A stretch of DNA of 64,000 nt from an uncultured Alphaproteobacteria bacterium. GTDB lineage: Bacteria; Pseudomonadota; Alphaproteobacteria; HIMB59. The notes under the pieces are model-generated. The model was given only the letters and a program-made list of their open reading frames with translations, had not been told where the DNA came from and ran no database searches. Numbering within the stretch: position 1 is the first letter of the stretch; every line of letters starts with the position of its first letter. Both the position numbers and the translations under genes were made by a program. Positions 1 through 14,485 of this stretch are shown here, piece by piece. The stretch spans positions 161,378 to 225,377 of the forward strand of contig CACMGP010000002.1 in NCBI GenBank assembly GCA_902613185.1, written 5' to 3'.

Positions 1-738
1 TATGGTAACCACAAAAAGAGTTGTAGGACCTAACATTGGCCAAGTTACAAGTTTAAATTGTTCCCAAGTTGACTGAGCACCATCCATTTCTGCAGCATGA
101 TACAATTCTCTTGGTATACTTGTTAAACCAGCTAAGTATAACACCATATTAAATCCAAAGGCTTGCCATACTCCAATAAAACAAATTGTCCAAATCGCTG
201 TTTTTTTATCTTTGAGCCAATACGGGAAATCCATATTGTTAGCACAAGCAACACTGTACCAACTGTCCTCGGAACTAACCCACGGTAGCCAATGAAAACC
301 TAAAATAAATTCTCTAATACCTCCGCATCCATTGGCAAGAAAAGAATTTATTATTCCAAGAGTTGGATGAAGAGTAAATTCCCAAGCAATAGCCATTGCC
401 AATAAAGTAGCCATCACCGGAAGAAAGAAAATTGTTTTATAAATATCAGCTCCAAATCGAAGAGAGTTGAGCATAATGGCTGCAACTAAACCTAATACCA
501 CTGAAACAGGAACAACGATCAACACGTAAGTTGCCGTTGATATAATCATTTTTATGTAAGTTTTTCTGGAGAACATTTTTTCATAATTCTCCGTACCTAC
601 CCATTCGAAACTAGAATTACCAAGATTGTAATTAGTAAATGAGATACCTCCGGCTAAAAAAATTGGAAGAATTAATATGACAATCATTAGTATGATTGCA
701 GGCCAAACAAACCAAATATGTGCTTTAGAGTGGTGCAT
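1..738 (-). CDS. Ugp/Mal-type ABC transporter permease (3' end cut by window edge)
   Basis: This is the N-terminal 246 codons of a binding-protein-dependent sugar/glycerol-3-phosphate type permease (UgpA/MalF class); the C-terminus lies outside the window. The ATG at 738-736 begins MHHSKAHIWFVWPA. Hydrophobic segments are visible near residues 8-31, 67-88, 102-120 and about 185-205. The cytoplasmic EAA loop that docks on the ATPase is present as YHAAEMDGAQSTWEQF near residues 215-232. It starts 2 nt downstream of the ATPase gene, so the two form one leftward operon, and a second permease probably follows outside the window. Its likely binding protein is the UgpB-like gene at 4803. Substrate is inferred from context only: a phosphonate or an organophosphate such as glycerol-3-phosphate. 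Confidence 0.85.
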   Translation of the reverse strand, partial: MHHSKAHIWFVWPAIILMIVILILPIFLAGGISFTNYNLGNSSFEWVGTENYEKMFSRKTYIKMIISTATYVLIVVPVSVVLGLVAAIMLNSLRFGADIYKTIFFLPVMATLLAMAIAWEFTLHPTLGIINSFLANGCGGIREFILGFHWLPWVSSEDSWYSVACANNMDFPYWLKDKKTAIWTICFIGVWQAFGFNMVLYLAGLTSIPRELYHAAEMDGAQSTWEQFKLVTWPMLGPTTLFVVTI

Positions 739-740
739 AT

Positions 741-1856
741 TTATCGGATACGCTCACCAGATGTTTCAAAAAGCATAGCCTCTGCATGAGAGAGACTTAT
801 TCTAACTGTTTCCCCATTTGAAATTAGTCCAGCTGGTGAGCCTCTGACTATGATCTTAAAGTCAGATTGATCAACTTGAACATGGTAAAATATATCCGAA
901 CCAAGGTTTTCTCTGTATGAAACTGTAGCCTCAAATGCAGGTTTGTTTGAGTCTTTTGTAATTTCTAAATGTTCTGGTCTCACAGCAACTAAAGCTTTTT
1001 GACTATTAGTATTAAATTTTCTTTCAAGCTTAATACCCGTAAATTCAACAGAACCATCAGAGGTAATCTGAGCAGCAAATGTGTTAATCTTTGGGCTGCC
1101 GACAAATTCTGCAACCCTTAAAGATGATGGATTATTATAAACCTCACTTGGTGTATCAAGTTGCAAAAGTTCCCCATCAATCATTACCGCCATTCGAGTT
1201 GACATTGTAAGTGCTTCAGCTTGATCATGCGTCACATAAATGAAAGTGGTCTTTAAAGAATTATGAAGCTCAGATAGTTCAGATCTCATATGAACTCTTA
1301 ATGCAGCATCAAGATTTGATAAAGGTTCATCCATTAAGAATGCAACTGGTTCTCTTACCATCGCCCTTCCTAATGCCGCTCTTTGTCTTTGACCACCAGA
1401 TAGTTGACCTGGCTTTCTATCAAGTAGTTCTGTTATTTTTAAAGTTTCAGATGTTTTAAAAACAAGGTCATCAATTGATTTCTTTTTTTCTTTTCTACTA
1501 GGTACAAAATTACCAACAAGAGGCAACCTCTCTACAAAACTATAGTCTCTTAATTTCAAAGGTGTTTCTAGATTTTTTCTGACAGTCAGGTGCGGGTAAA
1601 GAGCGTAAGATTGGAAAACCATTGCTAAGTCTCTCTTGCTGGCTCTGGTGCTGTTAACATTCTTATCATCAATAATTACATCGCCACTATTTTGTTGCTC
1701 TAATCCAGCAATAATTTTTAACAAAGTGGATTTGCCACAACCGGACGGACCGACTAATGTTAAAAATTCACCATCTTGGATATCAAGGCTTAGTTGTTTA
1801 AGTACCTCAGTTGAACCAAATGACTTATTGATGTTCTTTAAAGAAATTGTCCCCAT
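741..1856 (-). CDS. ABC transporter ATP-binding protein, MalK/UgpC family
   Basis: This is the ATPase subunit of a carbohydrate/glycerol-phosphate class importer (371 aa). Walker [10 protein letters not shown] is at residues 36-44, the Q-loop MVFQSYALYPH is near 79-89, signature LSGGQRQR at 152-159, Walker B AFLMDE at 172-177 and the switch region YVTHDQAEA follows. A C-terminal TOBE-type regulatory domain (about 240-371) is typical of MalK/UgpC. An insertion near residues 103-128 (YSFVERLPLVGNFVPSRK) separates Q-loop and signature relative to E. coli MalK; similar insertions occur in other alphaproteobacterial members as far as I recall. It is co-transcribed with the permease at 738. A degenerate Pho-box-like repeat lies about 54 nt upstream of its start. 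Confidence 0.93.
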   Translation of the reverse strand: MGTISLKNINKSFGSTEVLKQLSLDIQDGEFLTLVGPSGCGKSTLLKIIAGLEQQNSGDVIIDDKNVNSTRASKRDLAMVFQSYALYPHLTVRKNLETPLKLRDYSFVERLPLVGNFVPSRKEKKKSIDDLVFKTSETLKITELLDRKPGQLSGGQRQRAALGRAMVREPVAFLMDEPLSNLDAALRVHMRSELSELHNSLKTTFIYVTHDQAEALTMSTRMAVMIDGELLQLDTPSEVYNNPSSLRVAEFVGSPKINTFAAQITSDGSVEFTGIKLERKFNTNSQKALVAVRPEHLEITKDSNKPAFEATVSYRENLGSDIFYHVQVDQSDFKIIVRGSPAGLISNGETVRISLSHAEAMLFETSGERIR

Positions 1857-1992: not shown

Positions 1993-3228
1993 ATGAGTGA
2001 TAAAATTGACATTAATAAAAGACATTATAATAAGTCACTTACTTCAACTGTAGTAGTTATATGCCTCGATGGTAGTCAAAAAGAGTATATTGATATCGCC
2101 TCTTCAAAAGGATTGACACCAAATCTTGATAAAATATTGGAAAATGGCCAATATCTGATGGCTAACAGTGCTATTCCCAGTTTTACAAACCCTAACAACA
2201 TTTCGATAGTCACAGGGCAGCCTAGTGATGTTCATGGAATAAGTGGTAATTTCTTTTATACCCCATCAACCGGTGAAGAAGTGATGATGAATGATCCACA
2301 ATATTTAAGAGCTCCAACTATTTTTGAGAAATATTATAATGAAGGTTATAAAATAGCAGTAATCACTGCAAAGGATAAATTAAGAACTCTTTTAGGTAAT
2401 GGTTTAAAATTTAATGAAGGAAGAGCAATCTGTTTTTCATCAGAAAAATCAGATCAGGCCACTCTCAGTGAAAATGGTATAGAAAATATTAATGACTGGA
2501 TTGGAATGAAAGTACCTGAAGTATATTCTCAGGATCTATCAGAATTTGTTATGGCAGCTGGGGTAAAATTACTTGAGGAATTTAATCCTGACATTATGTA
2601 TTTATCTACCACTGACTTTATTCAACACAAATATGCACCTGGAGATAAAGAAGCAAATGATTTTTATCAGATGTTTGATAAGTATGTCAGTAAAATTTGT
2701 AGTAATGGGAATTCGGTTGTCATCACTGCAGATCATGGAATGAAGTCTAAAGCAAATATTAATGGAGAACCTAATGCCATCTTCCTTCAAGATTATTTAG
2801 ATGACCAAATGGGTAAAGATGAGGCTAAAGTAATACTTCCAATTACTGACCCTTATGTAGTTCATCATGGTTCACTGGGATCGTTTGCCACAATATATGT
2901 AAAAGATAAATCAAAAATTGATGAAACAATCATCAAAATATCATCAATTAAAGAAATTGAAGTAGTTGTTAAACAAGAAGAAGCATGTAGAGAATATAGG
3001 CTACCTTCAGATAGAATAGGTGATATCGTATGCATGTCATCCGAAGATATGACAATTGGTACCTCAAAAGCTAATCATGATCTTTCAAAATTAAAGGAAC
3101 CCCTTAGATCTCATGGAGGCCATCATGAAAGAGAAGTTCCTTTTATTTCTAATAAAAAACTAAACATTGCCAAAGATCAAAGTTTAAATAACTATGATGC
3201 ATTTTTTTATGCTATTAATGGAGCTTAA
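1993..3228 (+). CDS. phnA: Phosphonoacetate hydrolase
   Basis: The enzyme hydrolyses the C-P bond of phosphonoacetate to acetate and phosphate; it is a two-metal enzyme of the alkaline phosphatase/NPP superfamily, probably cytoplasmic since no signal peptide is seen. The expected metal and nucleophile residues are in place: D26 (VICLDGS), T65 (SFTNPNN), D208 and H212 (TTDFIQHK), D247 and H248 (TADHGM), and the C-terminal His cluster HGGHH at 373-377. Their spacing matches the Sinorhizobium PhnA set as I recall it, offset by three. It is followed 2 nt later by phnY, giving the two-step route from phosphonoacetaldehyde. The ribosome binding site is weak (GAGAG around 1977). The other possibility, a generic nucleotide pyrophosphatase, is unlikely given phnY next door. 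Confidence 0.93.
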
Positions 3229-3230
3229 TC

Positions 3231-4670
3231 ATGGCTGATAAAATTATTAATGAGGGTATGAGGATTGGTGGAAAAACTGTTCACACCGATAACAAGATTG
3301 ATGTTATCTATCCCTTCACAGGTAAAGTTATAGGCACAGTACCAGCTGGCACAGCAGAACATGCTCAAAAAGCCTTTGATATTGCTGCAAATTATAAACC
3401 CAATTTATCTAGATATGATCGTCAAAAAATACTTCAAAAGACTGCTGAAACGCTTGTTGAAAGAAAAGAACAAATCTCTGATCTAATTTCACTTGAGTCT
3501 GGGCTATCGAAACAAGATACGCTTTATGAAGTTGGTAGGGCCTTTGATGTATTTTCTCTTACTGCTCAGCTTTGTATCCAGGATGATGGAGAAATTTATT
3601 CTTGTGATTTAACACCTCATGGAAAACAAAGAAAAATATTTACAATTAGAGAACCGCTTAACACAATATCTGCAATCACTCCATTTAATCATCCTTTAAA
3701 TATGGTTGCTCACAAAATTGCTCCATCAATAGCAACTAACAACTGTACTGTTTGTAAACAAACAGAATTGACCCCTTTAACAGCTATGCTACTTGCAGAT
3801 ATTTTATATGAATGTGGCCTTCCTCCAGAAATGTTTTCAATTTTAACAGGATGGCCTGAAGACATTGGGAATGAAGTAATTAAAAATAAAAATATAGATT
3901 TGATTACTTTTACAGGAAGCGTTGGTGTTGGAAAACTGATAGCTGAAAATGCAGGTTACAAAAGAACTGTTTTAGAGTTAGGTGGAAACGACCCTTTAAT
4001 AGTTTTGAGTGACTTAGATGATGATGATTTAAATAAAGCAGCTGATCTAGCAATCATGGGAGCAACAAAAAACTCTGGCCAAAGATGCACTGCTGTAAAA
4101 AGAATATTAGTTCAAGAATCAGTAGCTGATAAATTTGTCGAGCTTGCTTTGGAAAAAGCAAAAGCAATTAAATATGGTGATCCTATGGATGTTAACAATC
4201 AGTTGGGTACAGTAATTAATAAAGAGGCAGCAAGTATGTTTAATGACAGAGTAAATAAAGCTGAAAAGGATGGTGCAAAAATTCTTTATAACCCTGGGGT
4301 TCAAGAAGCTCTTGTGCCACCAATTTTTTTAGACAACGTTAATTATAAATCAGAACTTGTTGTTGAAGAAACTTTTGGTCCAATTGTGCCTGTCATTAGA
4401 GTTCCCAATGATGATGAAAAAGTAATGGAAATTTCAAATTCAACGGCCTTTGGTTTGTCATCAGGTGTTTGTAGTAACGATTTTAGAAGAATTAAAAAAT
4501 ACATAAGCGGTCTTAATGTAGGCACGGTTAATATTTGGGAAGTGCCCGGTTACAGAATTGAGATGTCCCCATTTGGCGGAATAAAAGACTCAGGATTAGG
4601 CTATAAAGAGGGTGTAATAGAGGCTATGAAAAGTTACACAAATGTAAAAACTTTCTCATTACCCTGGTAA
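3231..4670 (+). CDS. phnY: Phosphonoacetaldehyde dehydrogenase
   Basis: This NAD-dependent aldehyde dehydrogenase oxidises phosphonoacetaldehyde to phosphonoacetate, the substrate of PhnA. At 479 aa it is a full-length ALDH: the cofactor-binding region holds the lysine of VCKQTE near 176, the general base lies in LELGGND near 249-255, and the catalytic cysteine is C286 in GQRCTAVKR. The C-terminal oligomerisation segment includes [16 protein letters not shown]. It follows phnA with a 2-nt gap and so is translationally coupled. No phnW (2-AEP transaminase) is present in the window, so the source of the aldehyde must be elsewhere or be the iron alcohol dehydrogenase at 7197. Substrate assignment rests mainly on the phnA pairing; the family itself is broad. 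Confidence 0.9.
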
Positions 4671-4741
4671 TTAATAGCTTTTAAGAATTATTCACAGATT
4701 TTTTTTCACACATACTGAATATTTCTACTTTGCTTTAAGAA

Positions 4742-4763
4742 TTTAACATATTCTTAACATTAA
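4742..4763 (+). promoter_or_regulatory. Candidate Pho box (PhoB site) upstream of the UgpB-like gene
   Basis: Two adjacent 11-mers, TTTAACATATT (4742-4752) and CTTAACATTAA (4753-4763), share a TTAACAT core at the 11-bp period expected for PhoB. The first 11-mer is identical to the first repeat upstream of pstS in this window. A TATAAT hexamer at 4780-4785 and a strong AGGAGG ribosome binding site at 4793-4798 lie downstream, before the ATG at 4803. The rest of the 132-nt phnY-to-SBP spacer is A/T-rich with no other feature seen. Confidence 0.65.
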
Positions 4764-4802
4764 GGATTTAGTAATTAATTATAATTATTTTTAGGAGGGA
4801 CT

Positions 4803-6038
4803 ATGAAAAAAGTAATCTTAGGATTTTTTGCATCAGTTTTCGCATACAACGCTAATGCAGTAGAAATTGAATTTGCATATCCTTATTCAGGTTTGTTCGA
4901 TGTGACATACCAGGCAATTATGCCAGAGTTTGAAAAAGCTCATCCTGACATTAAAGTTAAGTTCAGAGCAACTTATGAAAACTATGAAGATGCTACTGCT
5001 ACTATACTAAGAGAGTCAACATCAGGAAATTTACCTGATATCACAATGCAAGGTCTAAATAGACAAGCACCTTTAGTAGACAAAGGTATCGCTTTATCTT
5101 TAGAACCTTTCATAGCTAATGAGCCAGATTTTGCAAAAGACGGTTATCATGAAGCTATGTTGAGCTTATCTACCTTTGGAGGAGAAGTTTATGGCTTACC
5201 ATTTTCAGTATCAACTCCAGTTGGTTACTACAATATGGATCTTTTAGCAAGTGCAGGTGTTAGCAGCATTCCATCAAATTGGGATGAGGTTATTGACGCT
5301 TGTAATAAATTAGAAGCTGCAGGACACGGTACTCTTTACTTTGGATGGAATATTACAGGAAACTGGTTCCATCAAGCTCTAATGCATAGCCAAAATGTTC
5401 CAATGGTTAAAGATGGTGCTGTTAACATGGGAGGAGATGCAGGTCTAAAAACTCTAGAGCAAATGCAAGATATCATGGGTGGCTGTAATATGCCTAACTA
5501 TTCTATTGCTGACGGACAGGCTGCGTTTAATGCAGGTACTATTGGTATGATGTTTTGGAGTACTAGTAGTTTAGGCTCTGTTGAAGCTGCTAAAGCTGAC
5601 TTTGAGCTAAAGACTGCGCCTTTCCCAGGAATACCAGGTGTTAATGGTGGAACTCCAGCTAGACTACCTGCTGGTGGTAACGCAGCGATGTTAGTTACTA
5701 CATCAGATGACCCTGAAAGAGTACAAGCAGCATGGACATTTTTAAAATTTATCACATCAGGTGTAGGAGCGGCAGCTGTTGCAGAAACAACAGGTTACGT
5801 TCCTCCTAACAAAGCCGCGAATGACCTGCTAGGTGATTTTTATGATGCAAACCCAAACAAGTTAACTGCTGTTAATCAGTTGCCTTTGTTAGCTGATTGG
5901 TTCGCATATCCTGGAGAAAACGGTCTTGCTGTGACACAAGTAATTTATGACTACACCGAAGAAATTGCTACAGGTGATGCAGACGATATGGGTGATCTAC
6001 AGGCCGAAATGATGGAGGAGATTGAAGACTTAATGTAA
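4803..6038 (+). CDS. ABC transporter substrate-binding protein, UgpB-like (family 1)
   Basis: This is a periplasmic solute-binding protein (411 aa) for the ABC importer encoded at 1-1856. A classical Sec signal peptide is visible (Lys-Lys, hydrophobic GFFASVFAY, cleavage after NANA near residue 19). The mature N-terminus, the region TILRESTSGNLPDITMQG and the C-terminal TGYVPPNKAA segment resemble glycerol-3-phosphate-binding UgpB, a family-1 protein. It sits inside a phosphonate catabolic cluster, behind a candidate Pho box and a perfect Shine-Dalgarno, and is followed by a strong hairpin that should make it the most abundant product of the locus. Possible ligands are glycerol-3-phosphate, other phosphodiesters or a phosphonate; sequence alone does not decide. 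Confidence 0.88.
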   Translation: MKKVILGFFASVFAYNANAVEIEFAYPYSGLFDVTYQAIMPEFEKAHPDIKVKFRATYENYEDATATILRESTSGNLPDITMQGLNRQAPLVDKGIALSLEPFIANEPDFAKDGYHEAMLSLSTFGGEVYGLPFSVSTPVGYYNMDLLASAGVSSIPSNWDEVIDACNKLEAAGHGTLYFGWNITGNWFHQALMHSQNVPMVKDGAVNMGGDAGLKTLEQMQDIMGGCNMPNYSIADGQAAFNAGTIGMMFWSTSSLGSVEAAKADFELKTAPFPGIPGVNGGTPARLPAGGNAAMLVTTSDDPERVQAAWTFLKFITSGVGAAAVAETTGYVPPNKAANDLLGDFYDANPNKLTAVNQLPLLADWFAYPGENGLAVTQVIYDYTEEIATGDADDMGDLQAEMMEEIEDLM

Positions 6039-6070
6039 GTCTTTTTAATACCTTTTATCATTAGATTTTT

Positions 6071-6106
6071 AAACAGCAGTCATTATACTGGCTGCTGTTT
6101 TTTTTT
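6071..6106 (+). terminator. Intrinsic terminator or attenuator between SBP and MetE-like gene
   Basis: AAACAGCAGTC (6071-6081) pairs with GGCTGCTGTTT (6090-6100), an 11-bp stem with one G-T pair and an 8-nt loop, followed by a T tract to 6106. The next gene starts at 6109, so the terminator occupies the position where its ribosome binding site would be. Transcription of the downstream pair must come from read-through or an undetected promoter. Confidence 0.85.
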
Positions 6107-6108
6107 AA

Positions 6109-7191
6109 ATGAGCATTAAAACTACAACTATTGGAGCTTATCCAAAACCTAATTACACCCCTATAAGAGATTGGTTTCTTCAAGATAAATCAGACGAAGA
6201 AAAAAAACAATCTAAGGGATTGTTATCTAATTGGGATCCCAAAAGTGAAGATCATAAAATTTACGAAGAGAAAGATGAGGAAAAAGAAAAACTATTCTTA
6301 AAAGCTATTGAAGAGGTAATTCTTGATCAGACAAGTAGCGGAATAGATATCCCCACAGATGGTGAAGTAAGGCGAGAAAACTATATTTTTTATCAATTGA
6401 GGTTTTTTAATGGGGTAAGTTTTGAACACTTAACGACTAAATCAGTTAGGAAAGGAGCTTTTGAAGCAACACTCCCAACAATTACAAGTAAGGTTTCAAA
6501 TAAATCATTACGATTAGTAGATGATTGGAAATCTGCGCAGCAGTTTACTGATAACCCAGTGAAAATTACTATACCTGGTCCTATGACAATAACTGACTCC
6601 ATTGCTGATGACTATTATAATGATCCCAAAAAAATGGGTTATGATCTAGCTTTATGTATTAGTAATGAAGTTAAGGCTCTATCCGAAGCTGGTTGTCAAT
6701 ACATTCAAATTGATGAACCAGTGTTCGCCAGAAAACCAGAAGAAACACACGATTATGGTATGGAAAACTTAGAAAGAGCAATGCATGGAATACTAAAAGA
6801 AACTCAAAAAGCTTGTCATATTTGCTGCGGTTATCCTAACTCGCTTGACTCAGAACACTACAAAAAAGCAGACCTAGATGCATATGATAAAATTGCTGAC
6901 TTAGTTGAAGACTCTAGTATAGACGAAGTTTCTTTGGAAGACTCTCACCGACCTTTAGATTTAAAATTATTAGAAATATTTAAAAAAACCAAAGTTATTA
7001 TGGGTTTGATTGATGTAGCTAAAAGTCGTATGGAAAGTGTCGAGGAAATTCAAAAAAGGATCAGAGAAGTTCTTGAGCATATTGATGAGGAAAGATTAAT
7101 TGCTGCTCCTGATTGTGGTCTAGGGTTTTTTGATAGAAATCAAGCAAAACAAAAAATGCAAATTCTCTCAAAAGCTGTTAAAAATCTCTAA
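6109..7191 (+). CDS. Core-MetE-like zinc methyltransferase (cobalamin-independent methionine synthase catalytic domain)
   Basis: This 360-aa protein is a single MetE C-terminal barrel, half the length of classical MetE (about 750 aa), so it lacks the N-terminal folate-gripping barrel. The zinc ligands are intact: H237 and C239 in CHICCGY, E277 in SLEDSH, C336 in PDCGLGF. Members of this group include core-MetE enzymes that transfer methyl from methylcobalamin or small methylated donors to homocysteine, and the epoxyalkane:coenzyme M transferases. The gene lies in a phosphonate cluster with no vitamin B12 genes nearby. It starts 3 nt after a terminator T tract, with no Shine-Dalgarno. Role unresolved: methionine synthesis linked to the SAM genes at 10691-14154, or an alkyl transfer in phosphonate catabolism. 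Confidence 0.8.
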   Translation: MSIKTTTIGAYPKPNYTPIRDWFLQDKSDEEKKQSKGLLSNWDPKSEDHKIYEEKDEEKEKLFLKAIEEVILDQTSSGIDIPTDGEVRRENYIFYQLRFFNGVSFEHLTTKSVRKGAFEATLPTITSKVSNKSLRLVDDWKSAQQFTDNPVKITIPGPMTITDSIADDYYNDPKKMGYDLALCISNEVKALSEAGCQYIQIDEPVFARKPEETHDYGMENLERAMHGILKETQKACHICCGYPNSLDSEHYKKADLDAYDKIADLVEDSSIDEVSLEDSHRPLDLKLLEIFKKTKVIMGLIDVAKSRMESVEEIQKRIREVLEHIDEERLIAAPDCGLGFFDRNQAKQKMQILSKAVKNL

Positions 7192-7196
7192 ATCTT

Positions 7197-8309
7197 ATGT
7201 GGGAATATTATAATCCAGTAAATGTTATTTTTGGTTCGGAAAAATTTAATGAAATTGAACATATAATAAGTAATCGAAAGTACATTCTTATTACCCATCC
7301 TGATGATAACTTTGATACGTATAGAGAGTTTTTTAACAATTTATCAAATAAGCCTTTAGAAATCTTTGATGATGTTCAACCAAATCCAGACTATCAAGAT
7401 TTAATTTCTGCAGGGGAAAAATTTTCAAAAATAGAAAGTCGAATTGATACAGTTGTTGCTCTTGGGGGCGGCTCTGTCATGGATACGGCCAAATTACTTG
7501 CGGCTTTTAAAGGTGAAAATAAATATTTAAATGATTTTGTAAGAAATAAAAAATCAGCTTACGTTCAAGATCCAAAAAAAATTATAGCTATACCTACTAC
7601 TTCGGGCACATCGAGTGAACTTACGTGTTGGGCTACAGTCTGGGATAAAGAATATAAAAGTAAATTTTCATTAGCAGATAAATCTTTATATCCTGAAATA
7701 TCAGTTATTGACCCTAAGTTAATGATCAACAAGCCAAAAAATCTGACTATTTCTACTGGTCTTGATGCATTGTCCCACTCCTTAGAAAGCATTTGGAATG
7801 TAAACTCAAATCCGATTTCAACATTTCATGGAATTGCAGGTGCTCAAACCGTGATCGATACTCTTCCAAAACTTGTAAATGATTTAAAAAACATAGAGTT
7901 GAGAACTTTAATGGCTAAAGCTTGTGTTCATGCAGGTCTAGCTTTTTCAAATACTAAAACTGCAATAGCACATAATATTTCATACCCGATAACAATAAAT
8001 TTTAATGTTCCACATGGAATAGCTTGTTCTTTTACTTTGCCGACAATAATGAGGAGTCTGATTGGCCAAGATGAAAAAACAGAAAAATCCCTAGAAAAAA
8101 TTTATAATGTCGATCTCATTGAGAGTTCAAAAAGACTATCTGAGACATTGAGAATTCTTGAAGCACCATTAAATTTAAATGAAATTGGAATACCAAAAAT
8201 TGAATGGGATAAATATGTTGAGGATGCTTTTCAAGGTGAAAGGGGAAAAAATTTTATTGGAAATAAAATCTCATTTGATAAAGCGTGTTCTGAGATGAAT
8301 TTCTTCTAA
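7197..8309 (+). CDS. Iron-containing (group III) alcohol dehydrogenase, phosphonoacetaldehyde reductase-like
   Basis: This is an Fe-dependent NAD(P) alcohol dehydrogenase of 370 aa. The dinucleotide motif GGGSVMD is at residues 90-96, and all four iron ligands are seen: D190 and H194 (STGLDALSHS), H259 (AIAHN) and H273 (VPHG). The N-terminus MWEYYNPVNVIFG resembles proteins called phosphonoacetaldehyde reductase (PhpC type), which interconvert 2-hydroxyethylphosphonate and phosphonoacetaldehyde. No phosphonate-biosynthesis genes (pepM, ppd) are in the window and phnY/phnA are upstream, so I infer the oxidative direction. It starts 5 nt after the MetE-like stop, and its stop codon overlaps the convergent trxA stop by 3 nt. 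The substrate is an inference from the neighbours. Confidence 0.78.
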   Translation: MWEYYNPVNVIFGSEKFNEIEHIISNRKYILITHPDDNFDTYREFFNNLSNKPLEIFDDVQPNPDYQDLISAGEKFSKIESRIDTVVALGGGSVMDTAKLLAAFKGENKYLNDFVRNKKSAYVQDPKKIIAIPTTSGTSSELTCWATVWDKEYKSKFSLADKSLYPEISVIDPKLMINKPKNLTISTGLDALSHSLESIWNVNSNPISTFHGIAGAQTVIDTLPKLVNDLKNIELRTLMAKACVHAGLAFSNTKTAIAHNISYPITINFNVPHGIACSFTLPTIMRSLIGQDEKTEKSLEKIYNVDLIESSKRLSETLRILEAPLNLNEIGIPKIEWDKYVEDAFQGERGKNFIGNKISFDKACSEMNFF

Positions 8310-8632
8310 AGTTTACTGTTAATCCAACTTCTTAAGTCTGCTTCTGAGCCTAAGCCAATCTTTGCATCAGCCATTGATCCATCTTTAAAGAGTATCATTG
8401 TAGGTATACTCCTAATACTAAAGTTTGCTGGTGCTTGAGGATTTTCATCTATATTAATTTTTTTTATAGATATCTTATCGCCCATTTCAGAGGCTAAATT
8501 ATCCAAAATAGGAGCAATAGCCTTACATGGACCACACCACTCAGCCCAAAAATCTACCAAAACAGGCTTATCTTTTGATCCTTCAAGAACTTTTTGATTA
8601 AATTCATCGTCACTTATTTGTTCAACTGTCAT
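8306..8632 (-). CDS. trxA: Thioredoxin
   Basis: This is a cytoplasmic dithiol-disulfide reductant of 108 aa, the normal thioredoxin length. The active site WAEWCGPCK sits near residues 28-36 and the cis-proline segment IRSIPTMILF near 72-81. It can serve ribonucleotide reductase and the thioredoxin-coupled arsenate reductase encoded in this window. It lies 19 nt downstream of murU; in many alphaproteobacteria addB and addA sit between these two genes and are absent here. Its stop overlaps the stop of the convergent alcohol dehydrogenase, so no terminator fits between them. Confidence 0.97.
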   Translation of the reverse strand: MTVEQISDDEFNQKVLEGSKDKPVLVDFWAEWCGPCKAIAPILDNLASEMGDKISIKKINIDENPQAPANFSIRSIPTMILFKDGSMADAKIGLGSEADLRSWINSKL

Positions 8633-8651
8633 ATATTTAATATGGTTATTA

Positions 8652-9293
8652 TTATTTGTATTTCAAATACTCATCTTTAGTCCCAACATGAGCATTGATT
8701 TTAGTAGTCTCATATCCATAGATTTTTTCATTTAACGAACAATCTTTCCAAAAGTCTTGAATGTTAAAAATTTCAGGGTAAGGATGCAAAGAGTTTTTTC
8801 TAATAATATGACAACCTTGAAATGAAGTATTGCATAGTTTTGATGGAAAGTTAATAAGCCCTTCATTATTTACTTCAAGATCAAAATTATTATTTTTAGA
8901 ATTTATAAGAAGGACGCTATCAAAGCTTTTATTTTCATCAAAAAATTTGATTGACTTTTCTAATTCATTTTCAAAGGACTGGTCCCATAAATTATCTGTA
9001 TTTAGAACTACTGTATCGTTTGTTTGTATGTTTTTTATACCACCTCCTGTTCCTAAGATAGTTTCTTCATAAGAAATTGTAATATCAGGGTAATTTTCAG
9101 AGATAAATCTTTCTAACATATTATGTTTATAGTGGGTATTGATATAAATTTTATCAAATGACATGTTTTTAATGAGATCGATTGCATAGCTAATAAGTGT
9201 TTTATTTTTTATTTTTAATAAGGGTTTAGGGATATCTTTGGTTAAGTTATCCATTCGCATTCCATAACCTGCAGCTAATATTAGAGCGTCCAT
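8652..9293 (-). CDS. murU: N-acetylmuramate-1-phosphate uridylyltransferase (MurU-type nucleotidyltransferase)
   Basis: The 213-aa protein has the sugar-nucleotidyltransferase start MDALILAAGYGMRM and the substrate-positioning PKPLLKIKNKTL near residues 22-33. TGGGIKN near 82-88 and TDNLWD are further family motifs. MurU converts MurNAc-1-P and UTP to UDP-MurNAc, a peptidoglycan recycling shortcut. The call is supported by the immediately upstream AmgK-type sugar kinase, which would provide MurNAc-1-P; the genes abut with no gap. Without that partner only a general NTP-transferase assignment would be safe. Location is cytoplasmic. Confidence 0.85.
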   Translation of the reverse strand: MDALILAAGYGMRMDNLTKDIPKPLLKIKNKTLISYAIDLIKNMSFDKIYINTHYKHNMLERFISENYPDITISYEETILGTGGGIKNIQTNDTVVLNTDNLWDQSFENELEKSIKFFDENKSFDSVLLINSKNNNFDLEVNNEGLINFPSKLCNTSFQGCHIIRKNSLHPYPEIFNIQDFWKDCSLNEKIYGYETTKINAHVGTKDEYLKYK

Positions 9294-10262
9294 TTAACTT
9301 GTTTTGTTATATATCTCCATAAATATTTCTCTTAAATCCCAAAGTCTTAAATATTCGACATGTTTAAATATTTGAGCCCATGTATTTTTTCTAAAGACTT
9401 TAAGATATTTTGGTTTTCCAGCATTATATAATTGCACCCAATTACCAAGAATTCTCAGATTACGTAAAAGACTAATCATATGAATGTCTGACCTAAGCTG
9501 CTTGAGATTAAGTTTCATTCTTCTTGCATAAAGCTTCAATAATTTATCTTCGACTTTGGTAGAATAAGATCTCCTAGCATCAAAAATCAATGAAGAAATA
9601 TCTAATAATGGATGGTTGTAGTGAGTATCTTGATGATCAATAACATAAACTTTTTGATTGTAATAAATTAAATTATCTAAAAAAAAATCACCGTGAGTTA
9701 AAGTTGGCTTAAATTTTCTATATTTTTCAGTACTTTTTTTCAAAGATACTTTCACAAGTTTATTGAGATAAAAACCAATTTGGATCTTATGATCATAGTG
9801 GTCAATAAAAGTCTCAATACCGTTCAATGCATCCTTGAGTAAATTATTTTGTGATTTTACTTGAACGCCTGAAAACTTTTTCTTGGGTTTTTGAAGATTT
9901 GTAAGAGCTCTCACAGCCAATGGAAGTATTTTTTTAATTTGTGGTTTTTGGAAATATTTTGATGCATTTGTAATAGGGAAATAATCCATGATTACAAACT
10001 TATATAAATTACTTTGGTCAATTATTTTTGGTGTATTAACATTTTGAGAAATTAAAATATCAGTTGCTTTAATATATTTTTTATAATCGCTAGGTTTGTT
10101 TAAAAAAGAAAGGACAAGCAATGATTGATTTGCTGTTTTACATAATTTGAAAATTTTTTCTGATGCATCAGACTTGAAATTTAAAAAGCCCCCTATTTTA
10201 AAATTTTTATTTTGAAGGTGGTTTTTTATTTTGATTAGATTTATTTTATTTTGTGAAGCCAT
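9294..10262 (-). CDS. amgK: Anomeric MurNAc/GlcNAc kinase, AmgK-type aminoglycoside phosphotransferase fold
   Basis: This is a 322-aa kinase of the APH/choline kinase fold. The catalytic loop THGDFFLDNLIY (about residues 188-199) carries the HxDxxxxN signature, and the Mg-binding VIDHQDTHYNHPLLD follows. AmgK phosphorylates the anomeric hydroxyl of MurNAc and GlcNAc for MurU. The tsaE-amgK-murU order is common in alphaproteobacteria. The N-lobe is lysine-rich and diverged, consistent with the genome's A/T bias. It overlaps the end of tsaE by 22 nt, suggesting translational coupling. Function is assigned by family and neighbours. Confidence 0.8.
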   Translation of the reverse strand: MASQNKINLIKIKNHLQNKNFKIGGFLNFKSDASEKIFKLCKTANQSLLVLSFLNKPSDYKKYIKATDILISQNVNTPKIIDQSNLYKFVIMDYFPITNASKYFQKPQIKKILPLAVRALTNLQKPKKKFSGVQVKSQNNLLKDALNGIETFIDHYDHKIQIGFYLNKLVKVSLKKSTEKYRKFKPTLTHGDFFLDNLIYYNQKVYVIDHQDTHYNHPLLDISSLIFDARRSYSTKVEDKLLKLYARRMKLNLKQLRSDIHMISLLRNLRILGNWVQLYNAGKPKYLKVFRKNTWAQIFKHVEYLRLWDLREIFMEIYNKTS

Positions 10263-10690
10263 TTTTTATTACTTGATTTTATCTCTATATTTCTTTTCTC
10301 ACCAGTAACCGAAATATTAATAGATAAAGCCATATGATTATATCTTTTAATAAGGTTTTCTAATGGCCACTCAATAAGAACACAATTATCATTAAAATAC
10401 TCATCCAAATCTAGTTTGTTATTTTGAACTTGATAAAAATCAAAGTGAATAATATTAAACTTATTAAAATTGTAAATATGTTCTCTTTGATACGTGGGGC
10501 TCCCTTGGAAGGAAAAAGTTTTTTTTTCTGACTTGCTAATTTCACTTAAGATATATCTGATTAATGTTGTCTTACCAGAACCGGCCTCTCCCTCAAAAAA
10601 AATAATCTGGTTTTTAGATAGAGACCTAGATATATTTCTAGCTAAAGGTTTTAACTCAATTTCATTTGAGACTGCAAATCTCAAACTCAA
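10241..10690 (-). CDS. tsaE: tRNA threonylcarbamoyladenosine biosynthesis ATPase TsaE
   Basis: TsaE is the ATPase component needed with TsaB/TsaD for the t6A37 modification of ANN-decoding tRNAs. The protein is 149 aa, the usual length. Walker A EGEAGSGKTTL is near residues 34-44, with the family motif HFDFYQ near 80 and IEWPL near 106. The start appears to be TTG at 10690-10688, immediately after the metK stop (TAATTG), a pattern also seen at coaC/coaB. It overlaps amgK downstream. TsaB and TsaD are not in the window. Confidence 0.92.
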   Translation of the reverse strand: MSLRFAVSNEIELKPLARNISRSLSKNQIIFFEGEAGSGKTTLIRYILSEISKSEKKTFSFQGSPTYQREHIYNFNKFNIIHFDFYQVQNNKLDLDEYFNDNCVLIEWPLENLIKRYNHMALSINISVTGEKRNIEIKSSNKKWLHKIK

Positions 10691-11863
10691 TTAAGCTAGC
10701 GATTTGAAATCGGACACTAAATCTAGAGCTTCCCATGAAAAAGCTCCTGAAGAGCTGTCATGTGTTCTACCAAAATGACCGTAAGCTGCTGTTTGTTCGT
10801 AAATTGGCTTATTTAAGTGTAATTTCTCTCTGATTCCTCTTGGAGAAAGATTCATAATGTCAGGTATCGCAGACTCAATTTTTGCTTCATCTATTTTATT
10901 TGTGCCTTGAGTATTCACATATATTGACAATGGTTTGGCTACACCGATTGCATAAGACAACTGGATAGTACACTGATCACATAAACCAGCAGCAACAATA
11001 TTTTTTGCTAAGTATCGTGAAGCATAAGCAGCAGAGCGATCGACTTTTGTAGGATCTTTTCCAGAGAAAGCCCCTCCACCGTGAGGTGCTGCACCACCAT
11101 AGGTGTCGACAATAATTTTTCTTCCTGTTAATCCTGTATCACCATCTGGACCTCCAATTACAAAATTACCTGTTGGGTTTACGTAGTATTCTTTATCATC
11201 TAAATTTTTTAATAACTCTTCAGGGATAGATTCTTTTAATGCTGGATTTACTATTTCTTTAACATCAGCAGGAGACAATCCGTCAGCATGTTGTGTTGAT
11301 ATCACAACAGATGTAACTGCACTTGGTTTACCATCAACGTATTTAAGAGTTACTTGGCTTTTTGAGTCAGGCTCTAATCCTTTTAAGCTACCGTCTTTTC
11401 TTCCCTTAGCCATTATCTCTAAGATTTTATGAGAATAAAAAATTGGTGCTGGCATCAGTTCAGGTGTTTCCGTACAAGCGTATCCAAACATAATTCCTTG
11501 GTCACCTGCCCCCTCGTCTTTGTCAGATGATGAGTCTACACCCATTGCAATATCTGCAGATTGTCCGTGAAGTAAATATTGGATATCTGCGGTTTGCCAA
11601 TGAAAACCATCTTGCTCATAGCCGATGTCTTTTATGCACTCCCTTACTTTCGAAATAATTTCATCTTTGTCTTCTTGGACTGGTCCTCTTACTTCACCAG
11701 ATAAAACAACTTTGTTGGTTGTTGTTAATGTTTCACAAGCGACTCTAGCAAATGGGTCTTTGGAGATAAAATGATCGACAACTGCATCAGAAATTCGATC
11801 AGAAACTTTATCTGGGTGTCCCTCAGACACTGACTCAGATGTGAAAATATAATTTTTTCTCAT
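10691..11863 (-). CDS. metK: S-adenosylmethionine synthetase
   Basis: MetK makes SAM from methionine and ATP (about 390 aa from the start chosen). Hallmarks are [13 protein letters not shown] near the N-terminus, the loop [12 protein letters not shown], and [17 protein letters not shown] with its active-site lysines. The ATG at 11863-11861 gives [11 protein letters not shown], the normal family N-terminus, and lies 1 nt after the ahcY stop; an upstream in-frame start at 11908 would only add residues overlapping ahcY. Pairing with ahcY and an adenosine kinase makes a SAM production and SAH disposal operon. In other alphaproteobacteria metK often sits between lnt and trmB, which here directly overlap, so it appears to have moved. 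Confidence 0.96.
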
Positions 11864-11864
11864 T

Positions 11865-13145
11865 TTAGTACCTATATGTATCTTTCTTAAATGGACCTTG
11901 TTGCTCAACTCCTAAATAATCGCTTTGTTCCTTAGACATTTCAGTCAGTTTAGCACCAACTTTTTGTAAATGAAACATTGCAACCATTTCATCTAGTTTT
12001 TTAGGAAGGACATAGACTTTATTTTCATAGTTTTTGTAATTCTCCCAAATTTCGATTTGAGCTAAAACCTGATTTGAGAATGATGCACTCATCACAAAAC
12101 TAGGATGGCCAGTGGCATTACCTAGGTTCACTAACCTTCCCTTTGAAAGAATTATTAACTTCTTACCATCCGGAAATGTTACTTGGTCAACTTGAGGTTT
12201 TATCTCCTCCCATTTATAGTTTTGCAAATCATCTATTTGAATTTCATTATCAAAGTGTCCGATATTACAGACAATTGCACGGTCTTTCATTTCTCTCATA
12301 TGGTCTTGGGTAATGATATCTTTGTTGCCTGTTGCAGTTACAAATATATCAGCATACTTACATGCATCATCCATAGTGACAACCTCATAGCCTTCCATTG
12401 CTGCTTGAAGTGCACAAATAGGATCAACTTCTGTTACTTGAACTCTAGCCCCGGCCCCTCTTAATGAAGCAGCGCTACCTTTTCCAACATCTCCAAACCC
12501 AGCAACAACTGCAACTTTACCAGCCATCATTACATCAGTTCCTCTTCGAATTCCGTCTACTAAACTCTCCTTACAACCGTATAAATTATCAAATTTACTT
12601 TTTGTTACCGAGTCATTCACATTTATAGCAGGAACTTGAAGAGTTCCTTTAGATGCCATTTGCTCTAAACGAAGAACGCCTGTGGTAGTTTCTTCAGATA
12701 GTCCTCTAACATTTTTTAATAGCTCAGGGTACTTCTCGTGCATTCGAAGTGTTAGGTCTCCGCCATCGTCTAGGATCATATTAGGCTCCCATCCATCTGC
12801 CTCAATTGTTTGATCAATACACCACCAAAAATCCTCTTCATTCATACCCTTCCAGGCAAAAACGGGCGTACCGCTTTGGGCAATCGCAGCAGCTGCATGA
12901 TCTTGAGTAGAGTAAATGTTACAAGAACTCCATCGACATTTGGCACCGAGTGCTACAAGTGTTTCAATTAAGACAGCAGTTTGGATGGTCATGTGAAGGC
13001 AACCCATAATATTGGCTCCAGCCAACGGTTTTGACTCTCCATATTGTTCACGAATAGCCATTAATCCTGGCATTTCAGTTTCTGCTATTTCAATTTCTTG
13101 TCTCCCGAATTCATGTTGGGAAATATCTTTTACTTTGTAATCCAC
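11865..13145 (-). CDS. ahcY: S-adenosyl-L-homocysteine hydrolase
   Basis: AhcY reversibly cleaves S-adenosylhomocysteine to adenosine and homocysteine, using tightly bound NAD. It is 426 aa. Substrate-site motifs include [13 protein letters not shown] and DDGGDLT, the NAD fold has [12 protein letters not shown], and the C-terminus ends in the family Lys-x-x-x-Tyr-Arg-Tyr. The start is GTG at 13145-13143 behind a strong AGGAGGG at 13150-13156. The 55-nt gap to the upstream kinase is too short for a SAM or SAH riboswitch and none is seen. Product adenosine is removed by the upstream kinase, and homocysteine could feed the MetE-like enzyme at 6109. Confidence 0.97.
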
Positions 13146-13200
13146 TTAACCCTCCTTTTAGATAGACTATTTAAAATAAAATATGATTTGTTCTTCATTA

Positions 13201-14154
13201 TCAAGCTCTTTTTATCCTTGGTCCCAGCTGCTGAATAACTTCTTCAGCCTTTCTATTACCATTTTTAAGCGCTTCATCGACAGGTTTTACAGATAAGTAA
13301 AAATCTAAAAATCCTGCAGCAAAATTATCTCCTGCACCTGTTGTGTCCAGAACATTTTCTATTTTTTGAGCAGATTGATGTTTTACATCGTCTTCAAAAA
13401 AATAATATGCACCCTCAGCACCAGAGGTCATAACAATTTTTTTTCCAAAATTTTTAAAAAAAGAACTCACATCTGCCATTGAATCAGATTGTGTAAACAT
13501 CTTTGCTTCATCAAAATTACAAAAAACTAAATCTACATTATCAGTTATAAAATTTTTTAATTCATCTCTGTGTCGATCAACACAAAAAGGGTCTGACAAT
13601 GAAAGAGATATTTCTATGTTTTTTGATTTTGCAATATCTGAAAATTTTTTAAGTGTTTTTTTTGTTAGTTCATGATCCCAAAGATATGACTCCATGTACA
13701 CATGATCAATTGAATTGAGTATATCCTCATTAACTTCGTCTGGATTTAATTGTGAACCTATTCCGATGTGTGTGGCCATTGTTCTTTCACCATCGGGTGA
13801 AACTAAAATATTACAGCAGCCAGTTGGAAGATCTGTTTTATTGGAGACACCTTTAAACGAGATATTTTCTTTTTCTAAATCTTGAACAAAAGCATTTCCA
13901 TACTCATCATCATTGACCTTGCCGTAAAAACTTGCCTCATGAGAGCCAAAGTTTAATTCATGGATAGTATTACATACCGACCCTCCCGAAGTAATTAATG
14001 GATTATCGAAATTTGACCTAATTTCCTTAATTTGAGACTCCTCAATCAATGTCATAGAGCCTTTAGTTAATTTCAAATTATTGATGACACTGTCCTCTAC
14101 CTGGCATATGACATCAACCAAAGCAGTTCCTACCCCTAGAATTTTTTTCACCAC
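13201..14154 (-). CDS. Adenosine kinase, PfkB family
   Basis: This ribokinase-fold sugar/nucleoside kinase of about 317 aa is most like alphaproteobacterial adenosine kinases. The N-terminal ILGVGTALVDVICQ strand, the SGGSVCNT glycine pair and the C-terminal anion hole with catalytic base DTTGAGDNFAAGF are all present. I start it at GTG 14154-14152 (a second GTG follows), because homology begins there; the open frame extends to 14247 with unrelated residues. It lies just upstream of ahcY and would convert the released adenosine to AMP, pulling SAH hydrolysis forward. The exact nucleoside specificity is inferred from the neighbour. Confidence 0.85.
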   Translation of the reverse strand: MVKKILGVGTALVDVICQVEDSVINNLKLTKGSMTLIEESQIKEIRSNFDNPLITSGGSVCNTIHELNFGSHEASFYGKVNDDEYGNAFVQDLEKENISFKGVSNKTDLPTGCCNILVSPDGERTMATHIGIGSQLNPDEVNEDILNSIDHVYMESYLWDHELTKKTLKKFSDIAKSKNIEISLSLSDPFCVDRHRDELKNFITDNVDLVFCNFDEAKMFTQSDSMADVSSFFKNFGKKIVMTSGAEGAYYFFEDDVKHQSAQKIENVLDTTGAGDNFAAGFLDFYLSVKPVDEALKNGNRKAEEVIQQLGPRIKRA

Positions 14155-14437
14155 ATGAAAGTAAGGGATTTTAAACGGAGGTCTATTAAAAAATCCTGAA
14201 TTCCTTATGAAAGTTGAACATAAATGTGAATTGTTTTTGATGTGCAAAATGCGAATCAGGTTAGAATTAGGACTATTAAAAATGGACCTAAATAATATTT
14301 TTTAAGAGATATTCGTAGTTTTGAAAAATTTGATAAAAACCTGTGAATATTTTCAAATTACTTGTTAATTGAATCTTTAATTTCCAATTGAATTTATTGG
14401 CTTTTCAGAATTTAATACAAAATAAATTGACTAAGAT

Positions 14438-14485
14438 TGTCTATAGATTGTATAGTCACTAGGCAATAAACACTACATCTAGTGA
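14438..14485. promoter_or_regulatory. Tandem NrdR-box-like operator upstream of nrdA
   Basis: The 16-mer ACACTACATCTAGTGA at 14470-14485 matches the NrdR consensus (ACACWATATATWGTGT) at 13 of 16 positions. A weaker copy TGTCTATAGATTGTAT at 14438-14453 matches at 11. They start 32 bp apart, about three helical turns, which is the known arrangement of NrdR box pairs. They occupy the A/T-rich 355-nt non-coding stretch between the adenosine kinase start (14154) and nrdA; I see nothing else definite there. nrdR itself is not in the window. Confidence 0.6.

Follow-up and report, generated by a model that had tools for sequence, protein, structure and literature searches.

A stretch of 64,000 nucleotides from the genome of an uncultured alphaproteobacterium (contig CACMGP010000002.1 of assembly GCA_902613185.1; hereafter, the window) carries five consecutive forward-strand genes that we read as a candidate pathway for the degradation of 2-hydroxyethylphosphonate (HEP). 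The set begins with phnA (1993..3228; 411 amino acids), encoding phosphonoacetate hydrolase, and phnY (3231..4670; 479 amino acids), encoding phosphonoacetaldehyde dehydrogenase. It continues with the genes for a solute-binding protein (SBP; 4803..6038), a protein resembling the catalytic domain of MetE (6109..7191; 360 amino acids), and an iron-dependent alcohol dehydrogenase (Fe-ADH; 7197..8309) of the TIGR03405/PsrA-like kind, the proposed HEP dehydrogenase. The intergenic gaps are 2, 132, 70, and 5 nucleotides, respectively. The source genome is 1.35 Mb long, with a completeness of 92.22%. We place it by inference in the HIMB59/AEGEAN-169 order, and we compared 162 genomes of this order. 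They fall into two families, the window's own (52 genomes) and a sister family (110 genomes), a make-up that agrees with the description of the order in the relevant passages of PMC10734472. The near relatives are single-cell genomes of uncultured marine bacteria, filed as Alphaproteobacteria, “Pelagibacteraceae,” or “Pelagibacterales.”

The two enzymes at the head of the set are identified by curated family models. PhnA scores 484.9 bits against TIGR02335 (curated cut-off, 407.55), and its best match in the PDB is a phosphonoacetate hydrolase (3szy, 542.5 bits), with the SFTNPNN, TADHGMK, and RSHGG segments aligned. PhnY scores 761.5 bits against TIGR03250 (curated cut-off, 635.65). Its best PDB match, 4i3t (787 bits), is listed as an aldehyde dehydrogenase, and the aligned segment GQRCTAVKR contains the cysteine that we take to be catalytic. 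An earlier note on this DNA, made from the letters and a list of open reading frames (ORFs), had named both genes in this way, and its gene positions and names agree with the ORF list and the family scores.

The Fe-ADH matches the PF00465 and PF25137 domains. Its metal ligands (D190, H194, H259, and H273) and the GGGS cofactor motif (residues 90-93) are unchanged in all nine rows of our alignment, and the structure model, with a predicted local distance difference test (pLDDT) score of 89.3, has the corresponding fold, so the enzyme is a group III Fe-ADH with four iron ligands, as the earlier note had held. The protein is matched best, and over its whole length, by TIGR03405, the NCBIfam model for the phosphonate-associated Fe-ADH “PsrA.” Because the ADH reaches the TIGR03405 cut-off in none of the 162 genomes, the ADH of the order is, judged by sequence, a divergent branch of the TIGR03405-type enzymes. 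In a phylogenetic tree, the ADHs of the order form their own clade (support, 95/99, from a bootstrap that had not settled); beyond this clade, most of the tree is unresolved, with very long branches (9.04 for G112_PepM).

Twelve residues (T147, W149, S158, S193, W200, N201, T253, T255, S262, Y263, T266, and C277) are identical in all 22 TIGR03405-type ADHs that we compared; this signature is defined in our analysis and is no part of the TIGR03405 model. Eighteen of the 22 sequences were picked by the motif SNT[KR]T, so that their agreement at residues 251-255 is circular. The other four (L192, L184 of genome G162, L186 of G476, and L187 of G355) stand outside the tree and the 18-row count and were examined individually: L186 has F145 and I250, L187 has G150 and M250, and each of the four has the 12 residues. 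FucO carries none of the 12, and three Fe-ADH paralogues of the window's genus share only Y263, in two of the three. W145 (21 of the 22 ADHs) and T255 align with the FucO specificity positions N151 and L259, whose exchange alters the substrate range of FucO (PMC10324492, in whose numbering FucO has one residue more than in the annotated sequence).

By fold (template modeling [TM] score, 0.88) as well as by sequence (144.3 bits; chain labelled “methanol dehydrogenase”), the PDB entry closest to the window ADH is 6jko, the sulfoacetaldehyde reductase BkTauF. When three BkTauF positions were exchanged for alanine and isethionate oxidation was assayed, T257A and F265A were almost inactive, and F252A stood at 28% (PMC6616044). 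Mapped by alignment only, with the metal ligands setting an offset of five residues, F252, T257, and F265 correspond to F250, T255, and Y263 of the window ADH, and an F/Y exchange at the third position also occurs among TauF homologues (PMC6616044). Isethionate is the sulfonate analogue of HEP. BkTauF differs in having a sulfonate substrate, in being a reductase, in carrying Q for H at one metal ligand, and in favoring Zn (PMC6616044). Although the TauF-type substrate residues are present in the window ADH, the identity of 27% between the two enzymes and the phosphonate context speak against its membership in TauF.

None of the feeder enzymes for which we searched was detected in the source genome. 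The best matches to PhnW (101.0 bits; cut-off, 400.8), PhnX (29.3 bits; cut-off, 220), and the PbfD family TIGR03364 (75.4 bits, partial; cut-off, 285.1) all fall short, and neither PepM nor PhnJ has any match in the genome (the Escherichia coli control for PhnJ was positive). The genome, therefore, does not encode a recognizable PhnW-PhnY-PhnA (PhnWAY) pathway, PhnW-PhnX pathway, or C-P lyase, and the lack of phnW and phnX, previously remarked for the window, extends to the whole source genome. The idea that PhnW is encoded elsewhere in it was set aside accordingly. At 92% completeness, a missed feeder gene is possible, and many genomes of the family are also incomplete.

The arrangement is not unique to this contig, so the uniqueness that the earlier note would have taken as refuting its proposal is not observed. 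With full-length ADHs of this kind counted at 334 bits or more, the ADH occurs in 92 of the 162 genomes and PhnA in 125; 88 genomes have both, 37 have PhnA only, and 33 have neither. In each of the four genomes with the ADH only, the gene lies within 1.3 kb of a contig end. A Fisher test of the co-occurrence of the ADH and PhnA takes no account of relatedness, and we do not rely on it. Of 127 loci, 80 make up our named-locus set; their titles and identities place all of them in this order, and upstream of the ADH they contain phnA in 72 cases and phnY in 75. Eight loci are without phnA, the same number as have less than 4.3 kb of contig before the ADH, a correspondence of totals that was not matched row by row. 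In five loci of the sister family (L037, L038, L041, L042, and L044), phnA, phnY, and the ADH gene are adjacent, without the SBP, the MetE-like protein, and the ATP-binding cassette (ABC) transporter genes. Because the trio stays together in such loci, phnA-phnY-ADH is the core of the set, and the SBP, MetE-like, and ABC genes are a separable module. In the wider stretches examined (18 and 20), the family scans covered selected ORFs.

The feeder step appears to be interchangeable within the order. PhnW is over its cut-off in none of the 52 genomes of the window's family vs 91 of the 110 genomes of the sister family. PhnA is present in 26 genomes of the window's family, and 19 of these 26 phnA loci show the ADH (17 whole and two, L079 and L080, cut within it), while two more (L077 and L078) have the matching left part on contigs that end before the ADH point. 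In the remaining five (genomes G111, G116, G118, G120, and G128), a TIGR03364 oxidoreductase dependent on flavin adenine dinucleotide (FAD) scores over its cut-off directly after phnY and is followed by a DUF6-like membrane protein; in G111, the genes beyond this pair include one for a 2-aminoethylphosphonate (2-AEP) binding protein, also over cut-off. PbfD enzymes convert 2-AEP and its N-methyl form to phosphonoacetaldehyde (PMC10590968). In the sister family, 74 of the 110 genomes have a full-length ADH, and 28 of the 99 PhnA genomes lack one; 22 of these 28 have PhnW. We suggest that three possible sources of phosphonoacetaldehyde, PhnW, a PbfD-like oxidase, and the Fe-ADH, supply PhnY-PhnA within this one order, singly or in combination.

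Outside the order, we examined six of the nine plasmid matches to the ADH and ten ADH genomes at class level. Phosphonate genes (phnA, phnY, phnX, or phnCDE) are neighbors at five of the six plasmid psrA loci. A plasmid of Ensifer sp. PDNC004 has psrA-phnA-phnY, and a plasmid of Leisingera thetidis has a LysR gene, psrA, the gene for a phosphonate-type (PhnD-type) binding protein, phnC, phnE, a permease gene, phnA, and phnY, a gene plan that recurs in genome G535. The Comamonas locus reads phnD-phnC-phnE-psrA-phnX, and in Agrobacterium a single LysR gene separates phnX from psrA. Genome G532, of SAR11 size and a single contig of 1,237,371 bases, has phnA, an aldehyde dehydrogenase gene, and the ADH gene. 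Nearby are phnC, which passes its cut-off, and DUF6-like and phn-LysR-like genes, which do not; neither PhnW nor PhnX is over cut-off in this genome. The aldehyde dehydrogenase between phnA and the ADH (stretch L201, 9213-10655) is not PhnY: it scores 256.4 bits against TIGR03250 (cut-off, 635.65) and resembles betaine aldehyde dehydrogenase. The series of alcohol, aldehyde, acid, and C-P cleavage, therefore, recurs there with a different aldehyde enzyme. PhnX is over its cut-off in none of 12 genomes scored (the ten at class level, G111, and G112).

Given the genome-wide absences, the feeder interchange within the order, some distant recurrences, and the active-site residues common with a sulfoacetaldehyde reductase, we favor a catabolic route from HEP through the ADH, PhnY, and PhnA, to which we assign a probability of about 70%. 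The Fe-ADH would oxidize HEP to phosphonoacetaldehyde with NAD(P)+, PhnY would oxidize the aldehyde to phosphonoacetate, and PhnA would hydrolyze the C-P bond to yield acetate and phosphate. Being practically irreversible, the steps of PhnY and PhnA would draw the unfavorable oxidation of the alcohol forward, and the route would be an ethylene-free variant of the PhnW-PhnY-PhnA pathway. HEP as substrate, oxidation as the direction in vivo, and the choice of cofactor are our inferences. For the order as a whole, we incline to the view that a dedicated HEP pathway, independent of C-P lyase, ethylene-free, and made of the Fe-ADH, PhnY or another aldehyde dehydrogenase, and PhnA, is widespread, is present in at least one genome of SAR11 size, and recurs in rhodobacteria and rhizobia. 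It would so far have been counted as a “partial” 2-AEP pathway, with a feeder step that, within one order, can be taken by this dehydrogenase, a transaminase, or an FAD amine oxidase.

Several observations weigh against this route. The window ADH, at 383.1 bits, is under the TIGR03405 cut-off of 423.7, and a hairpin stands between its gene and phnA-phnY. Of the three matching pocket positions, F250 is also F in FucO and in the Fe-ADH paralogues, so that T255 and Y263 carry the weight. Moreover, the substrate residues of BkTauF are not conserved in SarD, the other sulfoacetaldehyde reductase of the Fe-ADH type, and BkTauF itself acts in its own pathway as a reductase that forms isethionate (PMC6616044). 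The feeder absences cover PhnW, PhnX, PhnJ, PepM, and PbfD; PbfA, PbfF, and PhnY*/PhnZ were not searched for. PhnW is also present in 67 of the 74 sister-family ADH genomes, and it is over cut-off in eight of the ten class-level ADH genomes outside the order; the ADH is, therefore, no simple replacement of PhnW. Only two of these ten genomes, G535 and G532, have phnA beside the ADH. Four others (G247, G216, G438, and G515) have PhnD, PhnC, and PhnE homologues and no sink enzyme in the stretch (two of the stretches end with the contig), three (G341, G162, and G355) have none of the sought phosphonate genes near the ADH, apart from a remote PhnC-like match in G162, and one (G476) has PepM by the ADH. 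On a Vibrio pelagius plasmid (L191, 8001-11589), psrA lies with the genes for a phosphonate binding protein, phnC, and phnE, and the flank holds no phnA, phnY, or phnX; in Burkholderia arboris, psrA is flanked only by LysR, again with no phnA, phnY, or phnX nearby. The pairing of the ADH with phnA-phnY or phnX, thus, holds in some distant bacteria and not in others.

Two ADH relatives lie in operons that would make phosphonates. In G112, a genome of the window's genus, the relative adjoins Ppd and PepM, both over cut-off (L092, 8019-11446); it is 34% identical to the window ADH, scores 206.2 bits against TIGR03405, and has all 12 signature residues, with F145 and I250 where the window ADH carries W145 and F250. 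The only other ADH among those examined to have F145 and I250, that of G476 (L202, about 8950-12220), also adjoins PepM and Ppd homologues (57% and 32% identity). This pair of positions may separate biosynthetic from catabolic ADHs, a distinction that rests on two sequences (n = 2). Despite these two operons, a biosynthetic HEP locus in the window was considered and rejected, there being no PepM in the source genome.

The same operons bear on the direction of the reaction. If the ADH worked as a reductase that makes HEP from phosphonoacetaldehyde, whether to relieve overflow, to detoxify, or to supply HEP for export, PhnY-PhnA would draw phosphonoacetaldehyde from another compound. Reduction is what one expects of the ADHs in the PepM-Ppd-ADH operons of G112 and G476, and the nearest functional analogues, SarD and TauF, are called reductases. 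The source genome, however, offers neither PepM nor a PhnW or PbfD over cut-off to supply the aldehyde, several distant loci link the ADH to PhnYA or PhnX and to PhnCDE importers, and both PepM-linked ADHs differ from the window ADH at positions 145 and 250 (a contrast of only two sequences). We consider the reductive direction quite unlikely. An alcohol other than HEP is unlikely too. Candidates are isethionate, a longer or substituted hydroxyalkylphosphonate, and a HEP ester that is first cleaved or demethylated with the help of the MetE-like protein. The match to the isethionate-binding positions of BkTauF points this way, as do the joint coming and going of the SBP, MetE-like, and ABC genes beside phnA-phnY-ADH and the occurrence of marine HEP as polysaccharide esters (PMC9381506, PMC5649143). 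Yet PhnY and PhnA score fully as phosphonate enzymes, phosphonate genes adjoin the ADH in several distant loci, and the loci without the MetE-like gene keep the ADH adjoining PhnY.

A general Fe-ADH might also be hitch-hiking beside phnA and phnY, which would then serve imported phosphonoacetate, or phosphonoacetaldehyde from an unrecognized enzyme, as a partial 2-AEP pathway. The pair phnY and phnA has been read in that way in 30% of “Ca. Nemonibacter” (PMC11366302). The hairpin between the ADH gene and phnA-phnY and the 28 of 99 sister-family PhnA genomes without a full-length ADH would fit such independence. We regard it as very improbable, because PhnA is present in 88 of the 92 ADH genomes, distant taxa again have the ADH next to phnA-phnY or phnX, and the residue signature, Y263 apart, is absent from FucO and from the three Fe-ADH paralogues of the genus. 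The catabolic route through HEP, which the earlier note had proposed, thus comes out well supported by the sequence comparisons; its two further claims, import through a UgpB-like system and novelty, do not.

The route would share with the PhnWAY pathway for 2-AEP its adjacent PhnY and PhnA orthologues, which perform the last two steps to acetate and phosphate; it differs in placing an Fe-ADH where phosphonoacetaldehyde is made, with no PhnW over cut-off. A PhnW-free feeding of PhnY-PhnA by PbfD has been named as possible (PMC10590968), and PbfD fills the position after phnY in the five relatives described above. That variant relies on the chemistry of an FAD amine oxidase, of which the source genome has only the partial match. 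With the phosphonoacetaldehyde reductase PhpC of HEP biosynthesis (PepM-Ppd-ADH), which we compared through the G112 enzyme and not through PhpC itself, the window ADH has the expected substrate pair and the 12 residues in common; the biosynthetic setting, the 34% identity, the F145/I250 pair of the G112 enzyme, and the lack of PepM in the source genome set the two apart. The reductase gene phpC is counted among phosphonate production genes in PMC9381506. C-P lyase would act on the same presumed substrate, with the same gain of phosphate. It differs in that no PhnJ is found here and that acetate would be formed instead of ethylene, which cultures with C-P lyase release from HEP (PMC5649143).

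Novelty, as it had been suggested, was overstated. The family was modelled and named by NCBI (TIGR03405, PsrA), it is the best family match of the window ADH and has phosphonate neighbors at five of the six plasmid loci, and the three genes are annotated together in the Ensifer and Leisingera plasmids. The window ADH departs from the family in scoring below its cut-off and in belonging to the order's own clade. The proposed route varies the hydrolytic pathway of PhnY and PhnA by drawing on a family that NCBI had already named, and the name PsrA suggests that someone had named this family before. Judged by their titles, several papers that contain both “psrA” and “phosphonate” concern other PsrA proteins, and we found no description of this family. 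The listings and passages of open-licence PMC papers that we covered held no description of an ADH-PhnY-PhnA route for HEP, and subscription work may exist. A 2023 review (PMC10574752) makes no mention of hydroxyethylphosphonate or HEP. The term “alcohol dehydrogenase” is absent from the text of the paper on phnY and phnA in “Ca. Nemonibacter” (PMC11366302), and the paper that describes C-P lyase islands of HIMB59 (PMC10734472) does not name phnA, phnY, or phnW. Oxidation of HEP was raised as a hypothesis for PbfF, a different enzyme, and was excluded by assay (PMC12366243).

The interest of the locus lies in the place of HEP in marine dissolved phosphorus and in the interchange of feeder enzymes. 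HEP and methylphosphonate together account for up to 20% of the phosphorus in high-molecular-weight marine dissolved organic matter, as esters (PMC9381506), and in the South Pacific Gyre the lineage makes up as many as 6% of cells (PMC11366302). The only route of HEP degradation that we met in the literature passages is the ethylene-forming C-P lyase (PMC5649143). If our reading is correct, the hydrolytic route would decouple the use of HEP from gas release, studies that take phnA or phnY as signs of 2-AEP use (PMC8316502, PMC11366302) would partly measure the use of HEP, and the named family PsrA would gain a testable function.

The five genes had also been described as one run. They are indeed consecutive and on the same strand, but a hairpin with a T-run (6071..6100, forward strand), resembling a terminator or an attenuator, lies between the SBP and metE-like genes and splits phnA-phnY-SBP from metE-like-ADH. 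The hairpin folds at −19.3 kcal/mol (z = −4.96); the number of terminator-like sites in our scan is at the level of chance (4 found, 3.5 expected from shuffles). The 78-nucleotide stretch before the metE-like gene folds below −10 kcal/mol in all 74 named loci with enough flank, a comparison that had no shuffled control. Elements of this kind after binding-protein genes can damp downstream expression. The set may, thus, consist of phnA-phnY-SBP and a less-transcribed metE-like-ADH part instead of a single run, and PhnA-PhnY may be produced in larger amounts than the ADH. The sister family also has a hairpin in this gap after the binding-protein gene, with another sequence.

The SBP belongs to the SBP_bac_8/SBP_bac_1 families and has only a remote resemblance to UgpB-type proteins (69 bits against the UgpB model; cut-off, 411). 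Divergent from phnA lies the gene for an ABC transporter ATPase of the UgpC/MalK-like kind (741..1856, reverse strand; 371 amino acids), which scores 383.4 bits against UgpC (cut-off, 432), and left of it, also divergent from phnA, are two ABC permease genes, one overlapping window positions 1-753 and the other beyond the window edge. Neither UgpB nor UgpC, thus, reaches the level of a Ugp glycerol-3-phosphate importer. The proposed import of HEP through this system is not supported, with the SBP far below the UgpB cut-off and the SBP, MetE-like, and ABC genes jointly missing in some phnA-phnY-ADH relatives. The MetE-like protein scores 116.7 bits against PF01717 and 168.3 bits against 3rpd, and in alignment it keeps the residues of the HxC..E..C motif, presumably of the zinc type. 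Across the genus, 19 strong PF01717 matches (111-117 bits) and two cut copies were found, with all 19 at ADH loci by their coordinates; the other matches are weak (about 35 bits or less). One may speculate that the MetE-like protein removes a methyl ester from a phosphonate.

On the right, the set is bounded in the window's family by a convergent thioredoxin gene (8306..8632, reverse strand). This edge is seen in 17 of the 80 named loci, and the remaining loci belong to the sister family. Left of the window, near the ABC permeases, an M24-family protein (L034, 7245-8561) has the dimethylsulfoniopropionate (DMSP) lyase DddP as its sole NCBIfam match at the threshold used (370.3 bits; cut-off, 600). 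Two further loci carry PbfD-type genes: in G114, a PbfD/DUF6-like/2-AEP-binding-protein locus stands without phnA-phnY (L093, G114:C4:46000-64000, 7730-14457), with PhnA found next to the ADH on a different contig, and in G135, of the window's genus, a PbfD-type oxidoreductase gene directly precedes phnX (L090, 6083-8004) in a genome without a PhnW match. Finally, a gene of about 375 codons follows the ADH gene in the sister family. We considered it as a candidate PhnW and rejected it, PhnW being a separate gene nearby; three of its copies have no NCBIfam match, and one of these also has no Pfam match. Copies of this family include P0001 (L039, 11100-12224) and a distant one upstream of the set in the source genome (L034, 6119-7282).

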